Assembly (NCBI GenBank): GCA_021783725.1
Contig: JAJXTN010000006.1
Coordinates: forward strand, 1 to 64,000
Source of the DNA: a bacterium
GTDB taxonomy: Bacteria; Patescibacteriota; Saccharimonadia; Saccharimonadales; UBA4665
DNA length: 64,000 nucleotides
Reading direction: 5' to 3'
Both the position numbers and the translations under genes were made by a program. Positions 7,187 to 42,677 of this stretch are shown one piece after another (the first letter of the stretch is position 1; the number at the start of each line of letters is the position of its first letter). The notes under the pieces were generated by a model. It was given only the letters and a program-made list of their open reading frames with translations. It did not search any database and was not told the DNA's origin.

Positions 7187-7273
7187 GCGGATATGGCGGA
7201 ATTGGTAGACGCGCTAGCTTCAGGAGCTAGTGGGCTTCGGCCCTTGGAGGTTCAAGTCCTCTTATCCGCACCA
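7187..7273 (+). tRNA. tRNA-Leu(CAG)
   Basis: The 87-nt tRNA has acceptor stem GCGGATA/TATCCGC, a D arm, anticodon stem CTAGC/GCTAG with loop TTCAGGA (anticodon CAG), a long variable arm (TGGGCTTCGGCCC) typical of tRNA-Leu, T loop TTCAAGT and an encoded CCA. Confidence 0.95.
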
Positions 7274-7355
7274 GAGAACAATGGTTTCACTGATGACACT
7301 TCGTTAGAGTCGACAGCAACAGCTCACTGAGCTGTTCTGCCTCTTATCCGCACCA
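7274..7355 (+). mobile_element. 82-bp element ending in a copy of the tRNA-Leu(CAG) 3' end
   Basis: The last 16 bases (7340-7355) exactly repeat tRNA positions 7258-7273, through the CCA. The body matches the element after tRNA-Leu(GAG) at 9353-9436: both contain TTTCACT, GAGTCGACAG and an 8-bp hairpin just before the repeat (AACAGCTC/GAGCTGTT here, AATAGCAC/GTGCTATT there). The stem pairs covary, so the fold is conserved. The structure looks like a tiny non-autonomous insertion at the tRNA 3' end, or a conserved processing element. There is no coding capacity. Confidence 0.6.
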
Positions 7356-7426
7356 TTCTACTTCGCTAAAGCTTTGTAGAATTTAGCGTAGTAGAATGCC
7401 CTCCAAAGCTTTAGGCGACGGAGGGC
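7355..7426 (+). repeat. Two successive hairpins after the copied CCA
   Basis: The first hairpin starts at the terminal A of the copied CCA (arms ATTCTAC/GTAGAAT, 7355-7397) and the second follows directly (GCCCTCC/GGAGGGC, 7398-7426). The same pair occurs at 9436-9498 with different but compensating arm sequences. They may act as transcription terminators or processing signals. The rest of the gap up to 7582 holds no gene that I can support. Confidence 0.55.
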
Positions 7427-7582
7427 TGTCTAGTTGAATGACACTGCACTACTGCCTGTTATCTAACCAAGTTGAATTTAATGTACCAAAAACCTCGATC
7501 CATAGCATAAGCGCATCTTAGTCCGATGTGCTATCATAATTGCTAGAAACTATGCTGTATATAGATAAGGATTTAAGAGGCA

Positions 7583-9217
7583 ATGAGTAAAGTTGCGCAT
7601 TATTTGCAGGAACACTTAGTCGGTGAGGTGATGACTGGCACGGACGCCAGGCACTACTTCTCGACGGACGCCAGTATATTTCAGTTACCACCAGCTATCA
7701 TCGTTTATCCACGTAATGAAAATGATGTTCGCAAAACCGCTCGCTTTACTTGGCAATTGGCCGAACGAGGTCGAGCTATACCAATAACCGCTCGGGGATC
7801 GGGTACTGATCAAACTGGGGCGGCCCTCGGTAGTGGGATTATGGTCGTTTTCCCAGCTCACATGAACCGCATTCTCGAGCTTGATACCAAATCGAACACG
7901 GTGATAGTTGAACCAGGCATCAATTACGGTAAATTACAGCAAGCCTTGCATACTCACGGTCGCTTTTTGCCACCTTTCCCGTCGTCACTGGAGTATTCAA
8001 CTATTGGTGGTGCAGTGGCTAACAATTCTAGCGGTGATAAATCGATAAAATACGGTGATACCCGTAACTATGTCAAAAGTTTAAGAGTCGTTTTGGCCAA
8101 CGGCGAAGTCATTGAAACCGGACGGCTGAGTAAGCGTGAACTTAGCAAAAAACTGGGACTAGCGACTTTTGAAGGCGAGATATATCGCTCGGTTGATACG
8201 CTTATCGAAGAAAACATTGAGCTTATCAGAAGGATGGCCATCAATGTTACAAAGAATAACGCTGGTTATGACTTACTCGATATCAAACGCAAGGACGGCT
8301 CATTTGACCTGACGCCACTATTTGTTGGCAGTCAAGGCACGCTGGGGATTGTGACTGAAGTCGAACTACACACTGTATTGCATAATCCCCGAGTTACTTT
8401 GGTGCTGGCAAATTTTGAAACACTTGAACAGGCACACGCCGCCATTATTGAGCTGAGAGCGATGGCTGATATACCCAGTTCTATCGAACTCATCGACAGC
8501 AAATTGCTGGAGCAAGTCCAGGCCATTAATCCAAACCAGATTAAGGATATTGTTGCGCCACCATTCCCAGCTGTCGTGCTGTTGATCGAGCTGGACATGG
8601 TCGATCGCCACCATAAGAAACAAGTCAAACAAACCGAGAAAATTCTCCACAAATACGCGACAAACGTTCAAATTGCGACTGAGCTTGAACATCAACAGAC
8701 TTTCTGGAAGATAAGAGAGATATCTAGTGCCATAATGTCCAACAATGAAGGCCTACTGCGATCACTGCCGATAACTGATGGAGCTTCGGTGCCGATAGAC
8801 CAACTGAAGGCTTACATCGAGGGTCTATACCAACTATTTAAGACTAATAATTTGAAAATTGGGGTTTGGGGTCATGCCGGTGACGCCAACCTTCACGCTC
8901 AACCTAAGTTAAATCTCGGTCAAGTAGGTGACCGTCAGAAAGCTTTCAGGCTAATAGACGATTGGCACAAAATGGTCATTGGCCTAGGTGGTAGTATGAG
9001 TTCCGGCTCTGGCGATGGTCGGTTGCACGCCCCATATCTTGAATCGTTTTATGGCAGTGAAATATACGCCTTGTTAGTGAAAGTTAAACAAGTTTTCGAT
9101 CCTTACGGTACATTAAATCCGGGTGTCAAATTTGGCACATCGATTGATGACATGAAAGCTATGGTTCGAGCTGACTACGGCATGGACCACTTGTACGATC
9201 ATTTGCCTCGTAGTTAA
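7583..9217 (+). CDS. FAD-linked oxidase, D-lactate/glycolate dehydrogenase type
   Basis: This probably oxidises a 2-hydroxy acid such as D-lactate and passes electrons to a membrane carrier. The PCMH-type FAD-binding domain covers about residues 35-215 (ITARGSGTDQTGAALGSGIMV, GGAVANNSSGDKSIKYGDT). The C-terminal FAD-oxidase domain (about 250-530) contains GVWGHAGDANLHAQP and DPYGTLNPGVKFG. At 544 aa it is complete and has no iron-sulfur domain. A weak ribosome site (AAGAGG) lies upstream. Substrate specificity cannot be read from the sequence. Confidence 0.85.
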   Translation: MSKVAHYLQEHLVGEVMTGTDARHYFSTDASIFQLPPAIIVYPRNENDVRKTARFTWQLAERGRAIPITARGSGTDQTGAALGSGIMVVFPAHMNRILELDTKSNTVIVEPGINYGKLQQALHTHGRFLPPFPSSLEYSTIGGAVANNSSGDKSIKYGDTRNYVKSLRVVLANGEVIETGRLSKRELSKKLGLATFEGEIYRSVDTLIEENIELIRRMAINVTKNNAGYDLLDIKRKDGSFDLTPLFVGSQGTLGIVTEVELHTVLHNPRVTLVLANFETLEQAHAAIIELRAMADIPSSIELIDSKLLEQVQAINPNQIKDIVAPPFPAVVLLIELDMVDRHHKKQVKQTEKILHKYATNVQIATELEHQQTFWKIREISSAIMSNNEGLLRSLPITDGASVPIDQLKAYIEGLYQLFKTNNLKIGVWGHAGDANLHAQPKLNLGQVGDRQKAFRLIDDWHKMVIGLGGSMSSGSGDGRLHAPYLESFYGSEIYALLVKVKQVFDPYGTLNPGVKFGTSIDDMKAMVRADYGMDHLYDHLPRS

Positions 9218-9219
9218 GC

Positions 9220-9248
9220 TTGAGTTTTCGGGCTAAAACAGATACGAT
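9220..9248 (+). promoter_or_regulatory. Promoter of tRNA-Leu(GAG)
   Basis: TTGAGT, a 17-base spacer ending TAAAACAGA and TACGAT, placed 18 bases before the tRNA. It is a paralogous copy of the promoter at 7084-7112, which supports both calls. Confidence 0.65.
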
Positions 9249-9266
9249 TATATAGCTTTTAGCCTC

Positions 9267-9352
9267 GCGGACGTGGCGGAATGGTAGACGCGCTACCTTG
9301 AGGTGGTAGTGGGAGTAATCCTGTGGAGGTTCAAGTCCTCTCGTCCGCACCA
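9267..9352 (+). tRNA. tRNA-Leu(GAG)
   Basis: The 86-nt tRNA has acceptor GCGGACG/CGTCCGC, anticodon stem CTACC/GGTAG with loop TTGAGGT (anticodon GAG), a long variable arm, T loop TTCAAGT and an encoded CCA. Confidence 0.95.
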
Positions 9353-9436
9353 AAGCCCATGATAGTTTCACTACTGACGCTCTGCTCGAGTCGACAGTAA
9401 TAGCACAACGTGCTATTCTGCCTCTCGTCCGCACCA
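9353..9436 (+). mobile_element. 84-bp element ending in a copy of the tRNA-Leu(GAG) 3' end
   Basis: Positions 9421-9436 repeat tRNA positions 9337-9352 exactly (16 bases through CCA). The body is homologous to the element at 7274-7355. Each copied tail matches its own tRNA (CTCGTCC here, CTTATCC there), so the tail is a target-derived duplication or is kept in step with the tRNA rather than being part of the element's fixed sequence. Confidence 0.6.
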
Positions 9437-9498
9437 TCCTCCGTCGCTAACAAAGTTAGCTATGGAGGATGCCCTACGAAGCCTCGGCGAAGGAGGGC
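9436..9498 (+). repeat. Twin hairpins after the copied CCA
   Basis: The first hairpin is ATCCTCC/GGAGGAT with inner GCTAAC/GTTAGC (9436-9470). The second is GCCCT/AGGGC around CGAAGCCTCGGCGAA (9471-9498). The second motif recurs at about 23559-23580, next to the tRNA-Gly tail copy. Confidence 0.55.
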
Positions 9499-9499
9499 G

Positions 9500-9650
9500 A
9501 TATGCTACAGCAAAGCCGTTAACAATAAGCAGGTGACATTTAACATTTATGGACAAAAGTTTATAACTTTTGAATAATTATTCGGCATTTGCTGGCCAAA
9601 AATGTAAAATGATAACTGGTACCTGATAAATGCTTTTGCGAAGCAGAAGC
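9500..9650 (+). repeat. Dispersed intergenic repeat, copy A, upstream of tRNA-Val
   Basis: This copy shares a common order of motifs with 21544-21680 and 22395-22551: GCAAAGC, TTAACAAT, ATGGACAAAA, an 8-bp hairpin (here CAAAAGTT/AACTTTTG at 9554-9572), GCTGGCC, TGTAAAATG and CTGATAA. The hairpin arms differ between copies but stay complementary. TTCGGC and TAAAAT, 18 bases apart, may be the tRNA promoter. A short hairpin (GCTTTTGC/GCAGAAGC) precedes the tRNA. Confidence 0.6.
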
Positions 9651-9729: not shown

Positions 9730-9928
9730 ACAAAAAAGTCGGTCTATGTGACCGGCTTTTTTGTTGGCTGAAGCTGAAGCCAGCCAACTGCTTGGCTGGC
9801 GGGGATTCGAACAGCCGGAGGAATGTTTTTGTTTGAGCGATAGCGAAAGGCAAAAACCGTGAGGCGGGTCCGCGAGCATTTTTCGTCAGGAAAATGACTT
9901 GTGGATCAGAATCCCTCAGCGCCCACCA
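9730..9928 (+). repeat. 199-bp segment ending in a copy of the tRNA-Val 3' end
   Basis: Bases 9909-9928 repeat tRNA-Val 9710-9729 exactly (20 bases through CCA). Between them lie the terminator, a GC-rich segment that on the minus strand resembles a tRNA 3' half (TGTTCGAATCCCCGCCA, near 9798-9815), and a hairpin around GAGCGATAGCG. No gene is present. Reading frames seen here are translations of tRNA sequence on the wrong strand. Confidence 0.55.
9731..9766 (+). terminator. Terminator after tRNA-Val
   Basis: The hairpin arms AAGTCGGTC/GACCGGCTT are followed by a run of T, directly downstream of the tRNA. This is a good intrinsic terminator. Confidence 0.75.
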
Positions 9929-9965
9929 TATAAAACGTCCCACGAAAGTGGGACTTTTTATATGG
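9926..9965. terminator. Bidirectional hairpin joining two tRNA-like 3' ends
   Basis: The sequence reads CCATATAAAA, stem GTCCCAC/GTGGGAC, then TTTTTATATGG. It is nearly symmetric. On the plus strand it follows the copied tRNA-Val tail. On the minus strand it follows another tRNA-like tail (GGTGTTCGAATCCCTGCACCA without its first base, near 9963-9983). The same layout occurs after tRNA-Leu(TAA) at 33020-33060. The remaining 9966-10197 stretch holds no supported gene. Confidence 0.55.
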
Positions 9966-10197
9966 TGCAGGGATTCGAACACCCGACCCCTAGGGGGAGG
10001 GGTGAGACACGCCGGTGGCATGTCGCAAGGCAATCTTCCGATGCGAGCTATGCTTGCAATCGTGAAGTTGCGGGTGAGATAAGTCGGTGACTTATCGCAA
10101 GGCCACGTTACAGATTTGAAGCTTGCTTCAAGTTTGTAACTGGCGGGCCTGCAGAATGTAGGTGCCGAAGGTAGGTCGAATCCCAAGTCGTCTAGTA

Positions 10198-22747: not shown

Positions 22748-23371
22748 ATGCTCGTTTTTATCGATGATTCAGGTGACCCCGGTTTTAAGTTCAATAAAGG
22801 TTCAAGCAGGCACTTTGTCATAGCTTGCATTATTTTTGATGACAATCTCGACGCCGAAGAGGCTGGGCTTAGGATTAAGCGGTTGCGACGTTCCCTACAC
22901 TGGCGAGATGATCACGAGTTTAAATTTAATAAAGCCAGTAAGACGATACGCTTAGCTTTTCTTAATGAAGTAAGGAGCTGTAAGTTCAGGATTAGGGCAA
23001 TAGTGGCTGACAAGTCCACAATTAGGAGCCCAGAATTGCGTAGAAGCAAGAACAAATTCTACAACTACATGATTAAAGAAGTGCTGTCTAAGAGCGATGG
23101 CTCGATAAAGTACGATCGGATTCGTCTTGATGGGCATGAAGACCGAGCCTATAAGAAGGCGGCAACAACCTATTTTCGCCACCAAGCTAATCCTAAAGGT
23201 GGAGTTATAAAGGATATGAAATTCGTTAACTCTAAGAATGACAACTTAGTACAGCTAGCCGATATGGTGGCAGGCGCCATCTTGAGGACAACTCAAACAG
23301 ATAAAACTGATAGTAAAGAATATCTTCGGGTTATTAATAAAAGGATTGAAGACATTTGGGATTTCAAATAA
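22748..23371 (+). CDS. DUF3800 domain protein, 207 aa
   Basis: DUF3800 proteins have an RNase H-like fold by family knowledge and occur widely near mobile elements and defence genes; their activity is not established. Visible motifs are VFIDDSGDPG at the N-terminus, a basic middle, and FVNSKNDNLVQLADMVAGA near the C-terminus, where acidic residues typical of the family sit. It is the only gene inside the segment bounded by tRNA-Gly tail repeats. Translation is probably leaderless. Confidence 0.8.
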   Translation: MLVFIDDSGDPGFKFNKGSSRHFVIACIIFDDNLDAEEAGLRIKRLRRSLHWRDDHEFKFNKASKTIRLAFLNEVRSCKFRIRAIVADKSTIRSPELRRSKNKFYNYMIKEVLSKSDGSIKYDRIRLDGHEDRAYKKAATTYFRHQANPKGGVIKDMKFVNSKNDNLVQLADMVAGAILRTTQTDKTDSKEYLRVINKRIEDIWDFK

Positions 23372-23374
23372 AAA

Positions 23375-23438
23375 ACCCGCTTCCTATCCTGGTTGTCCCA
23401 GGCACGCACACCATACGGTGACAGTTCGGAAAGCGGGT
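23375..23438. ncRNA. Branched hairpin after DUF3800, terminator or structured RNA
   Basis: Outer arms ACCCGCTTCC and GGAAAGCGGGT enclose two smaller hairpins (CCTGG/CCAGG and CACC/GGTG), giving a three-way junction. A run of A precedes it and there is no strong T run after it. It could be a terminator for both strands, or a structured end of the inserted element. Confidence 0.45.
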
Positions 23439-23633
23439 CAATTGTGCTTATATTATAGCCTGTAAGTAGCATGAGCGTCAACCATAAGCTATACCAAGAA
23501 GTCGGCCAACCCTCGCACCTGCGATAACGGGTCGAGGTGTTAGAGTCCCCCTGTGACCTGCGAAGCCTCGGCGAAGAAGGTTTACCCGCACCATCCTCCG
23601 TCGGAAACATTATTGTTTGATTCTTTACAATAT

Positions 23634-35649: not shown

Positions 35650-36252
35650 TTATGCTAGGATATTTTCGATCATTTTAAGCTCGTTACGGCGATCCACGTA
35701 GTCATTCATGAATGACTGGTAATCACCACTGAATAAGGCCAATATCTTGTCCGGTCGAACCCAGTCGGCATGTTTGTGGCCTGTATAATATGGCAAACTT
35801 GACCATTGCCATTGATTGAAATTCTGTGGATTGAGGTGAATATATCGACTAATGTGGAGTAGATGCCCGTCATCAACAATTCTGACCGCGCGGTAGCGTT
35901 GTTGGAATAATGGACCAACTCTCGAATAGCGTCTATTGAAGTACATAGCATACGCAATCGATACAGGCTTCAGTAGCTCAAACATGGCATCGGGGCTGTG
36001 TTGGTAGATGAAAAGATGAAAATGATTAGGCATTAAACAATACGCTAAAAGCTCTACATCTTGGTGTAATGTTTTGTAAGCTACCCCACTTTCTTTTTTT
36101 GATATTCTGGCTGATAGATAGCGCTTGAGGAGGCTAAGAAAAACGACATAGTCTTTATCGTCTAGAAAGATATTACGTCTATTTACTCCTCGATTATAAA
36201 TATGATAGAAGCTTTCAGGCACATATTCTTTGTAGATATTCTTCCCAGGCAT
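35650..36252 (-). CDS. REP-associated tyrosine transposase (RAYT, IS200-like)
   Basis: A Y1 HUH-type transposase of 200 aa. FYHIYNRGVNRRNIFLDDKD opens the family fold. The HUH metal motif is HFHLF (about residue 77) and the catalytic Tyr is in SRYIHLNP (about 140). RAYTs act on REP palindromes as single-stranded DNA. Two REP-like palindromes in opposite orientation bracket this gene at 45 and 66 bases, so a complete REP/RAYT unit is present. The reading frame is intact. Confidence 0.9.
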   Translation of the reverse strand: MPGKNIYKEYVPESFYHIYNRGVNRRNIFLDDKDYVVFLSLLKRYLSARISKKESGVAYKTLHQDVELLAYCLMPNHFHLFIYQHSPDAMFELLKPVSIAYAMYFNRRYSRVGPLFQQRYRAVRIVDDGHLLHISRYIHLNPQNFNQWQWSSLPYYTGHKHADWVRPDKILALFSGDYQSFMNDYVDRRNELKMIENILA

Positions 36253-39715: not shown

Positions 39716-39808
39716 ATGCAGCGTTATTACCCCAAAGATATCGAGTCCAGAACAGCCCAGTGGGCTGTTGCTGTCGACGCCAACGGAGTGTCCTGTGCAG
39801 AGATATAA
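39716..39808 (+). CDS. 30-aa upstream ORF mimicking the LeuRS N-terminus
   Basis: ATG at 39716 opens a short frame starting MQRYYPKDIE, close to the LeuRS start VQRYNPKDIE. It lies in another frame and ends by overlapping the leuS start by 14 bases. The leuS ribosome site (CGGAG) is inside it. It could be a leader peptide that couples or controls leuS translation, or the relic of a 79-bp tandem duplication. It is probably leaderless. Confidence 0.45.
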   Translation: MQRYYPKDIESRTAQWAVAVDANGVSCAEI

Positions 39809-42677
39809 TCCCAAAGATATCGAACCGCGTTGGCAGAAAATCTGGAACGATTCGAAGATTTATCAGGCTGACGACGATAGCCTAAAGCCCAAGAAATACA
39901 TACTCGAGTATTTCCCTTATCCAAGTGGCGCTACTATGCACGTCGGCCATGTGCGCAATTACACTATCGGAGATTCGATAGCTCGATTCTATCGAATGAG
40001 TGGCTATAACGTTTTGCATCCAATGGGCTGGGACGCTTTTGGTCTGCCAGCCGAAAACTATGCCATCAAGAATCACGTTAGTCCGCGCAAAGCCATCGAC
40101 GATAACACTGGACGTTTTCGTGAGCAGCTAATGCAAATGGGCTTTAGTTATGATTGGTCGCGCGAAATTGACAGTTCTGATCCGAATTATTATCGCTGGA
40201 CGCAGTGGTTTTTCCTGCTATTGTTCAAAAAAGGTCTAGCTTATCAACAAGAAAGCCTGCAATGGTGGTGCCCAGTTGATAAAACCGTTCTGGCTAATGA
40301 GCAGGTTGAAGCCGGCAAGTGCTGGCGTTGTGGCAATAGCGTTGAAAAGAAATCTTTGAAGCAATGGTTTTTCAAAATCACCGATTACGCCGATCGACTA
40401 CTCGACGATCTCGATGACTTAGATTGGTCCGATGCTATCAAAGCCATGCAACGCAACTGGATCGGCCGCTCAAACGGGGCAGTTATAAAGTTTCAAGTTG
40501 AAAAGTCGCAAGTCGTAGAAGTTTTCACGACTCGTCCCGACACTCTATTCGGCGCTACTTTCATGGTTCTAGCTCCGGAACACCCTCTAGTCAAATCTAT
40601 AACTTCTGACATTCAGAAATCCGAAGTCGAGGCTTATATCAAAGCGGCGCAGGCTAAAAGTGATGTCGAGCGCCAGGAGACTGACCGCGAAAAAACTGGT
40701 GTTTTCACTGGATCTTATGCCATCAATCCGGTCAATAAGGCCAAAATCCCGATCTGGATTGCCGATTACGTCTTAAGTGGATACGGCACTGGGGCCATCA
40801 TGGCCGTACCGGCCCATGACGACCGCGATTATGAATTCGCCAAGAAGTTCAATCTACCGATCACGACCGTCATTGAACCGGTTAGTGGTCAAGAGCAAGG
40901 TGATGAAGTTCGCAAGCAAGCCATCGTCGCCATCGTCCGAAATCCCAAAACCAATCAAATACTGATGTTAGATTGGGGTCCACGCCAAGACCGATTCGGC
41001 GGTAAGCTATTCGTTGGCGGTGGTGTAGATGAGGCAGAGGACATCGTCGACTGTGCTCGGCGTGAAATTGCCGAAGAAACCGGCTACACCAATTTGAAGC
41101 ATGTCGCCACAACCGATACCGTGGCCCATGGTTATTACTTCTCGAACGTTAAGAACAAGAACTATTACGCTAAAATGCATGGTCTATTATTCGACTTGAT
41201 TGACGAAACTCAAGTTGACCAGCAGTTAGATGAGGGTGAAAAGAATAAGTTCAAAATCACTTGGGTCGATCAGCTATCGGCTGAAAATCTAGTTGATGAC
41301 GACGGACACCGCTACCTATTCAATGCTTTGCTCGGCAATGGCTGTTATAGCGGCGAAGGTCTGATGATCAATAGTGGTCAATATGATGGTACGGCTAGTT
41401 CTGAAGCTCGCGAAAAAATAGTTGCCGAGTTAGCCGAAACTTCTAGTGGCCAGATAGTTACTAATTACAAAATGCGCGACTGGCTGATTAGTCGTCAACG
41501 CTATTGGGGTGCACCAATTCCGATTATTCATTGCCCCAAGCACGGAGCAGTGGCGGTTCCCGATGATCAATTGCCGGTCAAGCTACCAGAAATCGATAGT
41601 TATGAACCGAGTGGCGACGGCCGAAGTCCGTTGGCTAAAGTGTCGGAATTCGTCAACACCGTCTGTCCGCAATGTGGCGGTCCGGCTGAGCGCGAAACTG
41701 ACACCATGGATGGTTTTGCCTGCAGTAGTTGGTATTTCTTACGTTTCGCTGATACGCACAATGATCAATCACCATTCAGTAAAGCTAAAGTTGATGAATG
41801 GCTACCAGTCGATGATTACATCGGCGGAGCTGAACACGCCGTGATGCATTTACTGTATGCCCGATTCTGGACGAAAGTCATGTATGACGATAAGTTGATA
41901 GATTTCCAGGAGCCATTCACGACGTTGCGCAATCAAGGTATGATTTTGGCGCCCGATGGCAACAAAATGAGCAAAAGCAAAGGTAACACCATCGAGCCCG
42001 GTGGCTTAATAGACCAAGGTTATGGTGCCGATAGTGTCCGAATTATGGAACTATTTATCGGGCCTTGGAATCAAACGGCAGCTTGGAGTGTCGAAGGCAT
42101 GGGTGGCGCTTATCGATTCCTTAACCGTATCTGGACCCTGACCCAAGAGTATTTGGAGACTAAATCGAACAAGGCCACTACTGGTGAATCAAATGATGAC
42201 ATTCGGCGCGCCGTTCACTTCACAATCAAAAAAGTCAGCGAAGATTTGAATAGCTTAAGCTTTAACACTGCCATAGCTGCTGAGATGGAAACGCTTAACC
42301 AGCTATATAAATTCAAAGCCAAGGACAATTACGCATCCCAAGACTGGGCATGGGCTATCGAGACATTTTTGCAATTACTAGCACCTTTCGCCCCGCACAT
42401 TACCGAAGAACTTTGGCAGGCTCTCGGTCATCAGACATCAATCCACAGCAGTCAATGGCCGGTTCACGATGATAAATATCTGATTCAAGATTCTATGACC
42501 ATCGTCATTCAAGTTAATGGCAAATTACGGGGTGAAATAAGCGTCCCAACCAACCAACCGGAAGCCGAGATAGTCTCTACCGCCAAGGCTAACGACAAGG
42601 TTAGTAGTTATTTGGAAGCCAAAGAAATTCGCAAAACCATCTACATCTCCAACAAACTAGTTAATTTCGTAGTCTAA
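39795..42677 (+). CDS. leuS: Leucyl-tRNA synthetase with inserted Nudix domain
   Basis: It charges tRNA-Leu; five loops of the class I fold are recognisable. HVGH (H49-H52) is the HIGH motif and KMSKS begins at K724. The editing domain (CP1) is interrupted at about residues 362-515 by a complete Nudix hydrolase domain. Its box is GGVDEAE (from G409) then REIAEETGY, which fits GX5EX7REUXEEXGU exactly. The editing sequence resumes at GCYSGEGLMINSGQYDG. GTG at 39795 is chosen over upstream frames because CGGAG lies eight bases before it and VQRYNPKDIE is the conserved start. Length is 960 aa against about 810-860 without the insert. Confidence 0.93.
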   Translation: MQRYNPKDIEPRWQKIWNDSKIYQADDDSLKPKKYILEYFPYPSGATMHVGHVRNYTIGDSIARFYRMSGYNVLHPMGWDAFGLPAENYAIKNHVSPRKAIDDNTGRFREQLMQMGFSYDWSREIDSSDPNYYRWTQWFFLLLFKKGLAYQQESLQWWCPVDKTVLANEQVEAGKCWRCGNSVEKKSLKQWFFKITDYADRLLDDLDDLDWSDAIKAMQRNWIGRSNGAVIKFQVEKSQVVEVFTTRPDTLFGATFMVLAPEHPLVKSITSDIQKSEVEAYIKAAQAKSDVERQETDREKTGVFTGSYAINPVNKAKIPIWIADYVLSGYGTGAIMAVPAHDDRDYEFAKKFNLPITTVIEPVSGQEQGDEVRKQAIVAIVRNPKTNQILMLDWGPRQDRFGGKLFVGGGVDEAEDIVDCARREIAEETGYTNLKHVATTDTVAHGYYFSNVKNKNYYAKMHGLLFDLIDETQVDQQLDEGEKNKFKITWVDQLSAENLVDDDGHRYLFNALLGNGCYSGEGLMINSGQYDGTASSEAREKIVAELAETSSGQIVTNYKMRDWLISRQRYWGAPIPIIHCPKHGAVAVPDDQLPVKLPEIDSYEPSGDGRSPLAKVSEFVNTVCPQCGGPAERETDTMDGFACSSWYFLRFADTHNDQSPFSKAKVDEWLPVDDYIGGAEHAVMHLLYARFWTKVMYDDKLIDFQEPFTTLRNQGMILAPDGNKMSKSKGNTIEPGGLIDQGYGADSVRIMELFIGPWNQTAAWSVEGMGGAYRFLNRIWTLTQEYLETKSNKATTGESNDDIRRAVHFTIKKVSEDLNSLSFNTAIAAEMETLNQLYKFKAKDNYASQDWAWAIETFLQLLAPFAPHITEELWQALGHQTSIHSSQWPVHDDKYLIQDSMTIVIQVNGKLRGEISVPTNQPEAEIVSTAKANDKVSSYLEAKEIRKTIYISNKLVNFVV

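Follow-up and report, generated by a model that had tools for sequence, protein, structure and literature searches.

The two segments that lie behind tRNA-Leu(CAG) and tRNA-Leu(GAG) in the window (the whole stretch of 64,000 nucleotides analysed here, from a Saccharibacteria genome designated G000) are copies of a dispersed element of 44-46 nt, here named E. Considering the E family as a whole, these segments are probably non-autonomous mobile DNA of ~50 nt that duplicates its target, a reading to which we assign a probability of about 0.7. A tiny non-autonomous, target-duplicating element had been proposed by the sequence-only reading of this DNA, and this part of the proposal is supported by the dispersed copies, by an identical E at two tRNA genes, by empty orthologous sites and by a duplication that, in most copies, begins at the right end of E.

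E copies in the window

Three copies of E and their flanking duplications were delimited in the window, as follows.

7187..7273, + strand: tRNA-Leu(CAG), intact (ARAGORN); its last 16 nt (7258-7273) are the left duplication copy
7274..7294, + strand: left part of the insert at tRNA-Leu(CAG), variable; contains GGTTTCACT, also seen in some other copies
7295..7339, + strand: E copy 1 (covariance model R1, 52.1 bits); conserved block 7295-7315, 8-bp palindrome 7318-7336 (AACAGCTC-ACT-GAGCTGTT), right end CTG
7340..7355, + strand: displaced right copy of the tRNA-Leu(CAG) tail, CCTCTTATCCGCACCA
9267..9352, + strand: tRNA-Leu(GAG), intact (ARAGORN); its last 16 nt (9337-9352) are the left duplication copy
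9353..9375, + strand: left part of the insert at tRNA-Leu(GAG), variable
9376..9420, + strand: E copy 2 (model R1, 44.4 bits); conserved block 9376-9396, palindrome AATAGCAC-AAC-GTGCTATT
9421..9436, + strand: displaced right copy of the tRNA-Leu(GAG) tail, CCTCTCGTCCGCACCA
39717..39744, + strand: displaced copy of the leuS start region, TGCAGCGTTATTACCCCAAAGATATCGA, preceded by ATG at 39716
39748..39792, - strand: E copy 3, at the 5' end of leuS
39796..39823, + strand: copy of the leuS start region in frame with leuS (GTG start at 39795)
39795..42674, + strand: leuS, leucyl-tRNA synthetase, 960 aa (Pfam)

The sequence confirms that the segments 7274-7355 (82 nt) and 9353-9436 (84 nt) each end in an exact 16-nt copy of the tail of their own tRNA, as described previously, and that their bodies are homologous, with 78% identity over 89 nt between the CAG and GAG loci. 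The earlier observation that the hairpin arms of the two Leu copies differ by two compensated pairs also holds. An exact 16-nt match within 100 nt is expected by chance only ~2e-8 times per tRNA and, therefore, the tail copies cannot be attributed to chance. At both Leu sites, the duplication comprises only 16 nt. Nevertheless, describing these segments as a pair belonging to tRNA genes proved too narrow: E is dispersed and extends beyond tRNA genes, and copy 1 is closer to the leuS copy (40/45 identical positions) than to the tRNA-Leu(GAG) copy (33/45).

Other features of the window are recorded here. Palindromic units of the type TCCTACTTCGC..GCTTCGTAGGA and GCCCTCC..GGAGGGC, possibly REP-like, trail several tRNAs or displaced tails; they are located at 7356-7426 and 9437-9506, as well as after a tRNA-Glu (L009) and a tRNA-Lys (L010). 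The leucyl-tRNA synthetase (39795-42674) contains a NUDIX domain (residues 374-496) inserted past the start of the editing domain, and an RNA match to DUF3800-IX is found at 23370-23439 on the minus strand (75.2 bits).

Anatomy and distribution of E

E consists of a 21-nt block (consensus GACGCTTCGCTCGTGTCTACA) followed by a palindrome of 8-9 bp, the loop of which usually has three bases, and ends in TG, AG or CG. Its right end is fixed, in the order of conserved block, palindrome and TG or a similar dinucleotide, whereas the left side is variable, with about 5-25 nt between the left duplication copy and E that are neither conserved nor duplicated. The palindrome covaries: in 19 aligned copies, five of which were hand-trimmed by one base at the palindrome start to hold the register, 53 double-changed cells were counted versus 16.4 +/- 3.3 in shuffles, and the signal was lost when the palindrome partners were slid. 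The untrimmed count agrees, with 95.7% paired versus 69.6% in the best of 2000 re-pairings. G-T pairs are rare (1 in 158 standard palindrome pairs, versus 6% in the tRNA stems of these genomes; P = 6e-4), and this scarcity suggests selection acting on DNA rather than on RNA pairing, or exchange between the arms. At 45 nt, E holds too little signal for a tree.

About 36 copies of E were found in Saccharibacteria, eight of them in this genome. Searching the genome with the segment body retrieved the copy at the leuS start, and the conserved block additionally retrieved copies after tRNA-Thr(GGT), tRNA-Thr(CGT), tRNA-Met and tRNA-Pro(CGG), and another beside a CIRCE-like inverted repeat. The covariance-model search, suggested by the sequence-only reading together with an inspection of what precedes each hit, yielded 31 matches in 15 of 93 genomes of the family, to which five further copies in a genome of another family (G129) are added. 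Related Saccharibacteria do carry E, and the preceding sequence is not always a tRNA. In these relatives, the conserved block reads GTCTACA where this genome has GTCGACA. The genomes compared are mostly draft metagenome assemblies. In a collection of ~85,000 species, the core pattern was found in 17 stretches. Assemblies of Saccharibacteria or Patescibacteria account for 11; the remaining six, from unrelated bacteria, look like chance matches, in which no such palindrome follows the block when inspected by eye. The core pattern had no exact match in viral contigs, Rfam gave no significant match in the region of the Leu segments except the tRNAs themselves, and a few sets of terms used on open-access full texts did not retrieve a description of E.

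Target duplication and evidence for mobility

The duplication was assessed for 32 copies by aligning the 45 nt to the right of E to the 120 nt to its left. The right flank repeats the left flank in 20 of these 32 copies, starting 0-3 nt after E and exactly at 0 in 17 of them. Typically, the duplication comprises 25-29 nt, with a range of 16-29 nt across the clear cases. Exact duplications of 25-26 nt are found at the Gly site of G115, the Thr site of G129, the Arg site of G031 and one terminator of G030, while that of the Cys site of G030 extends over 29 nt with one mismatch and that of a G115 terminator over 20 nt. The remaining 12 copies, including most of the seven located at tRNA 5' ends, show no clear duplication in this test. 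As a control, right flanks were aligned to the left flanks of other copies; its upper tail is long, owing to the mutual resemblance of tRNA T-arms, and the p-values are consequently modest. The fixed start offset is stronger evidence for a duplication than these p-values.

Insertions into tRNA genes are usually located at G52 of the T-arm, and a stretch of 25 nt that begins there ends exactly at the CCA. Since the matches often stop at the CCA, we considered whether the tail could have been retro-copied from the mature tRNA. This was rejected: terminator duplications lack a CCA, the Cys copy continues 4 nt beyond it, and a 25-nt duplication from G52 would reach the CCA in any case. In a survey of five Saccharibacteria genomes, limited to the tRNAs of the fetched stretches and also counting a second, longer kind of tail copy, exact own-tail copies of at least 13 nt within 600 nt downstream were found for 9/39 (this genome), 2/37, 3/36, 9/35 and 1/35 tRNAs. 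The tails of other tRNAs matched these downstream 600 nt in only three of 6444 comparisons.

This second, longer unit follows many tRNAs and comprises a terminator-like hairpin, an antisense copy of the T-arm, a structured stretch (often with CGCAGGAGC-NN-GCTCCGAG) and a sense tail copy of 18-24 nt that ends in CCA, typically ~180 nt after the tRNA. It is found in the window at 9730-10190 (after tRNA-Val TAC), at four other loci of this genome (L046, L050, L054 and L057) and at three of G129 (L128, L133 and L142). Within a genus, the unit is inherited at the same tRNA and its tail copy degrades. In addition, at one locus of this genome (L047, contig C1, 600-1100), a tRNA-Met gene appears to be split around a complete second tRNA-Met, the 5' half (GGGGCAG...CATAA) and the matching 3' tail (...CTGCCCCACCA) being separated by both E and the longer kind of insert.

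Several observations bear on the mobility of E. In G129, two tRNA genes have an identical 44-nt E: one copy follows tRNA-Thr(CGT), and the other lies in the second unit of a tandem pair behind tRNA-Arg(CCT). Each precedes the tail of its own tRNA, and the left stretches differ. The tRNA-Gly(CCC) gene carries E in G115 and not in five congeners of G115 or in this genome, in all of which it neighbours the same tRNA-Thr(CGT). Likewise, the tRNA-Leu(CAG) and tRNA-Leu(GAG) genes found in G006, G115, G003, G129 and G126 have no E behind them. These E-free sites come from other species rather than from closely related strains. Lastly, in G006 the tRNA-Val(TAC) gene is separated by 2.1 kb, containing a pair of ABC-transporter genes, from an E followed by a displaced Val tail and, therefore, E can also bound cargo.

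Targets and fate of the two copies

The targets of E include tRNA T-arms, tRNA 5' ends, terminators and the ends of protein genes, which were identified with Pfam as leuS, alaS, efp and an ATP synthase epsilon-type protein (atpC); a further target in G065 resembles the end of glmS by eye only. The previously proposed insertion at tRNA 3' ends is supported but not specific. The efp duplication is short and was missed by the alignment test. Among the targets, T-arms, terminators and one CIRCE-like repeat appear by eye to have dyad symmetry.

In general, the gene-completing copy stays intact, and decay tends to affect the displaced one. The kept copy is the left one at tRNA 3' ends and, in protein genes, the one that continues the reading frame. 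In seven cases, E directly adjoins the first base of a complete tRNA, so that the right copy is the gene itself; there, the left copy is recognisable weakly (G003 Met) or not at all, and no copy of the tRNA start was found farther upstream of E in the stretches examined. Diverged displaced tails are found at the Pro and Thr(CGT) sites of this genome and at the Pro site of G129.

Neutral decay does not account for the differences within some pairs of kept and displaced copies. The alaS copies of G065 differ at 10 of 33 nt with one amino acid change (P = 5e-6), and the leuS copies of the window at 5 of 27 nt, again with one amino acid change (P = 0.004); for the atpC copies, the coding-type divergence is not significant (P = 0.26). 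In G030, tRNA-Arg(CCT) is followed by a displaced copy that derives from a different tRNA-Arg: it comprises a 42-nt 3' part of that tRNA, and its own T-stem is paired. The divergence of the paired copies at synonymous sites, together with this part of another tRNA-Arg, suggests that E-bearing genes may have recombined with alleles of other lineages, which would make one of the copies foreign.

Relation to known systems and candidate movers

Three protein families were included in the search for a mover, and none of them, namely Cas1, RAYT and the GIY-YIG nucleases, fits. Casposons share with E the insertion at the 3' ends of tRNA genes, including tRNA-Leu, and the duplication of the target (PMC6977970). 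They differ in that the element is multi-gene and the duplication comprises 14 bp, overlapping the last 4 bp of the tRNA (PMC6977970). A casposon or mini-casposon was rejected, as Cas1 was absent from all 13 genomes searched (nine of them at least 90% complete and clean, and 12 carrying E or belonging to E-carrying families) and the E duplication is mostly 25-29 nt rather than 14-15 bp. A CRISPR repeat is as long as the E duplication, but the same absence of Cas1 applies. The REP sequences associated with RAYT transposases are likewise short palindromic repeats. Three RAYT-like genes are present in this genome, one of them in the window (~35836-36072, minus strand, Y1 transposase), each between its own palindromes, which are different from those of E; none was found in the 12 other genomes searched, most of which have E, and a REP/RAYT mover was rejected. 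A GIY-YIG homing cassette was considered on account of two ORFs around tRNA-Lys(CTT), and its general role as a mover was rejected from G129, a genome rich in E and tail copies in which the GIY-YIG domain is only found in one long protein of 479 aa and in no small one. At the tRNA-Lys(CTT) locus itself (L046, contig C17 of this genome, 36930-37890), small GIY-YIG ORFs lie on both sides of the tRNA and two tail copies lie downstream.

The closest known kind would be the small palindromic mobile repeats such as YPAL/RU-2 of Yersinia, a likeness in behaviour that does not imply membership. These are non-autonomous repeats of ~168 bp with internal inverted repeats and without TA ends, whose target duplications of 3-26 bp span or adjoin dyad symmetry (PMC2229807). 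Like them, E is non-coding, has an internal inverted repeat, lacks TA ends, is present in several copies per genome and has a duplication of variable size (16-29 nt). In contrast, E is ~50 rather than ~168 bp long, its host belongs to an unrelated phylum, and the targeting of tRNA genes is not mentioned in the review of YPAL/RU-2 (PMC2229807).

Origin of the E segments

Several explanations can be considered for these segments. The main rival, which we judge unlikely, is that integrative islands or cassettes set by a site-specific recombinase end in E, with the 50-nt form being minimal or degenerate. According to this scenario, the incoming DNA brings a replacement gene end and the host's own end is displaced, as in the tRNA-gene islands (Islander), which are kilobases long and carry a tyrosine integrase (PMC4383910). 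A restored tRNA gene and a displaced fragment flanking the insert are indeed the signature of such islands (PMC4383910) and are shared by E, the 2.1-kb arrangement in G006 is of the expected kind, and in alaS and leuS the kept copy and the displaced one resemble two alleles. Nevertheless, the usual insert of ~50 nt encodes nothing, no integrase or other recombinase is found among the ORFs of the 2.1-kb insert of G006, which are ABC-transporter parts, many duplications are exact, and target genes that are unrelated share a single conserved right end, with protein genes and terminators also among the sites.

It is far less probable that E and the tail form a functional RNA unit, a processing signal or decoy tRNA tail under selection at tRNA genes, as the sequence-only reading had offered as its alternative. 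The tail copies do match their own tRNA and end in CCA, and the hairpin pairing is conserved. This decoy proposal is not supported, given that the displaced copies outside tRNA genes (leuS, atpC, efp, alaS and terminators) do not correspond to tRNA tails, that several displaced tails have diverged, that the hairpin almost lacks the G-U pairs expected of a selected RNA stem, that the same tRNAs of relatives have no E, and that no Rfam family matches. Ordinary duplication of a tRNA-Leu locus, whether tandem or segmental, which had been named as the outcome that would overturn the mobile-element proposal, can practically be dismissed. The two loci are alike over ~200 nt, downstream palindromes included, and relatives lack both tail copies. 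However, E also occurs outside these two loci, with copy 1 closest to its counterpart at leuS and five further copies at other places in this genome, and the orthologous tRNA-Leu genes of relatives have no E.

In the mobile-element reading that we prefer, E would insert at gene ends, often in or beside stem-loops such as tRNA T-arms and terminators, and the insertion would duplicate ~25-29 nt of the target. One copy of the duplication would complete the gene and be kept, while the other would be left beyond E, free to decay. A putative recombinase may recognise the palindrome as a DNA structure, and homologous recombination of the flanking gene may be a further route by which E passes between lineages; this would account for copy pairs that differ mainly at synonymous sites, as in alaS and leuS. 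A more specific version, tentative and rather doubtful, is that E, as a folded DNA hairpin, is recognised by its shape and not by its sequence by the putative recombinase, which would make staggered joints of ~25-29 nt at gene-end stem-loops, the gene ends then being reshuffled between lineages.

Implications

As a mobile element, E would rank among the smallest mobile DNA elements described, being far too short to encode a protein. The long duplication would make its insertion in essential tRNA and synthetase genes harmless. It would also imply an enzyme that makes duplications of 25-29 nt at tRNA T-arms in bacteria whose genomes are very small, and raises the question of its identity. E would also explain the partial tRNA copies found downstream of tRNA genes in Saccharibacteria, which might otherwise be taken for decoys, pseudogenes or island scars.
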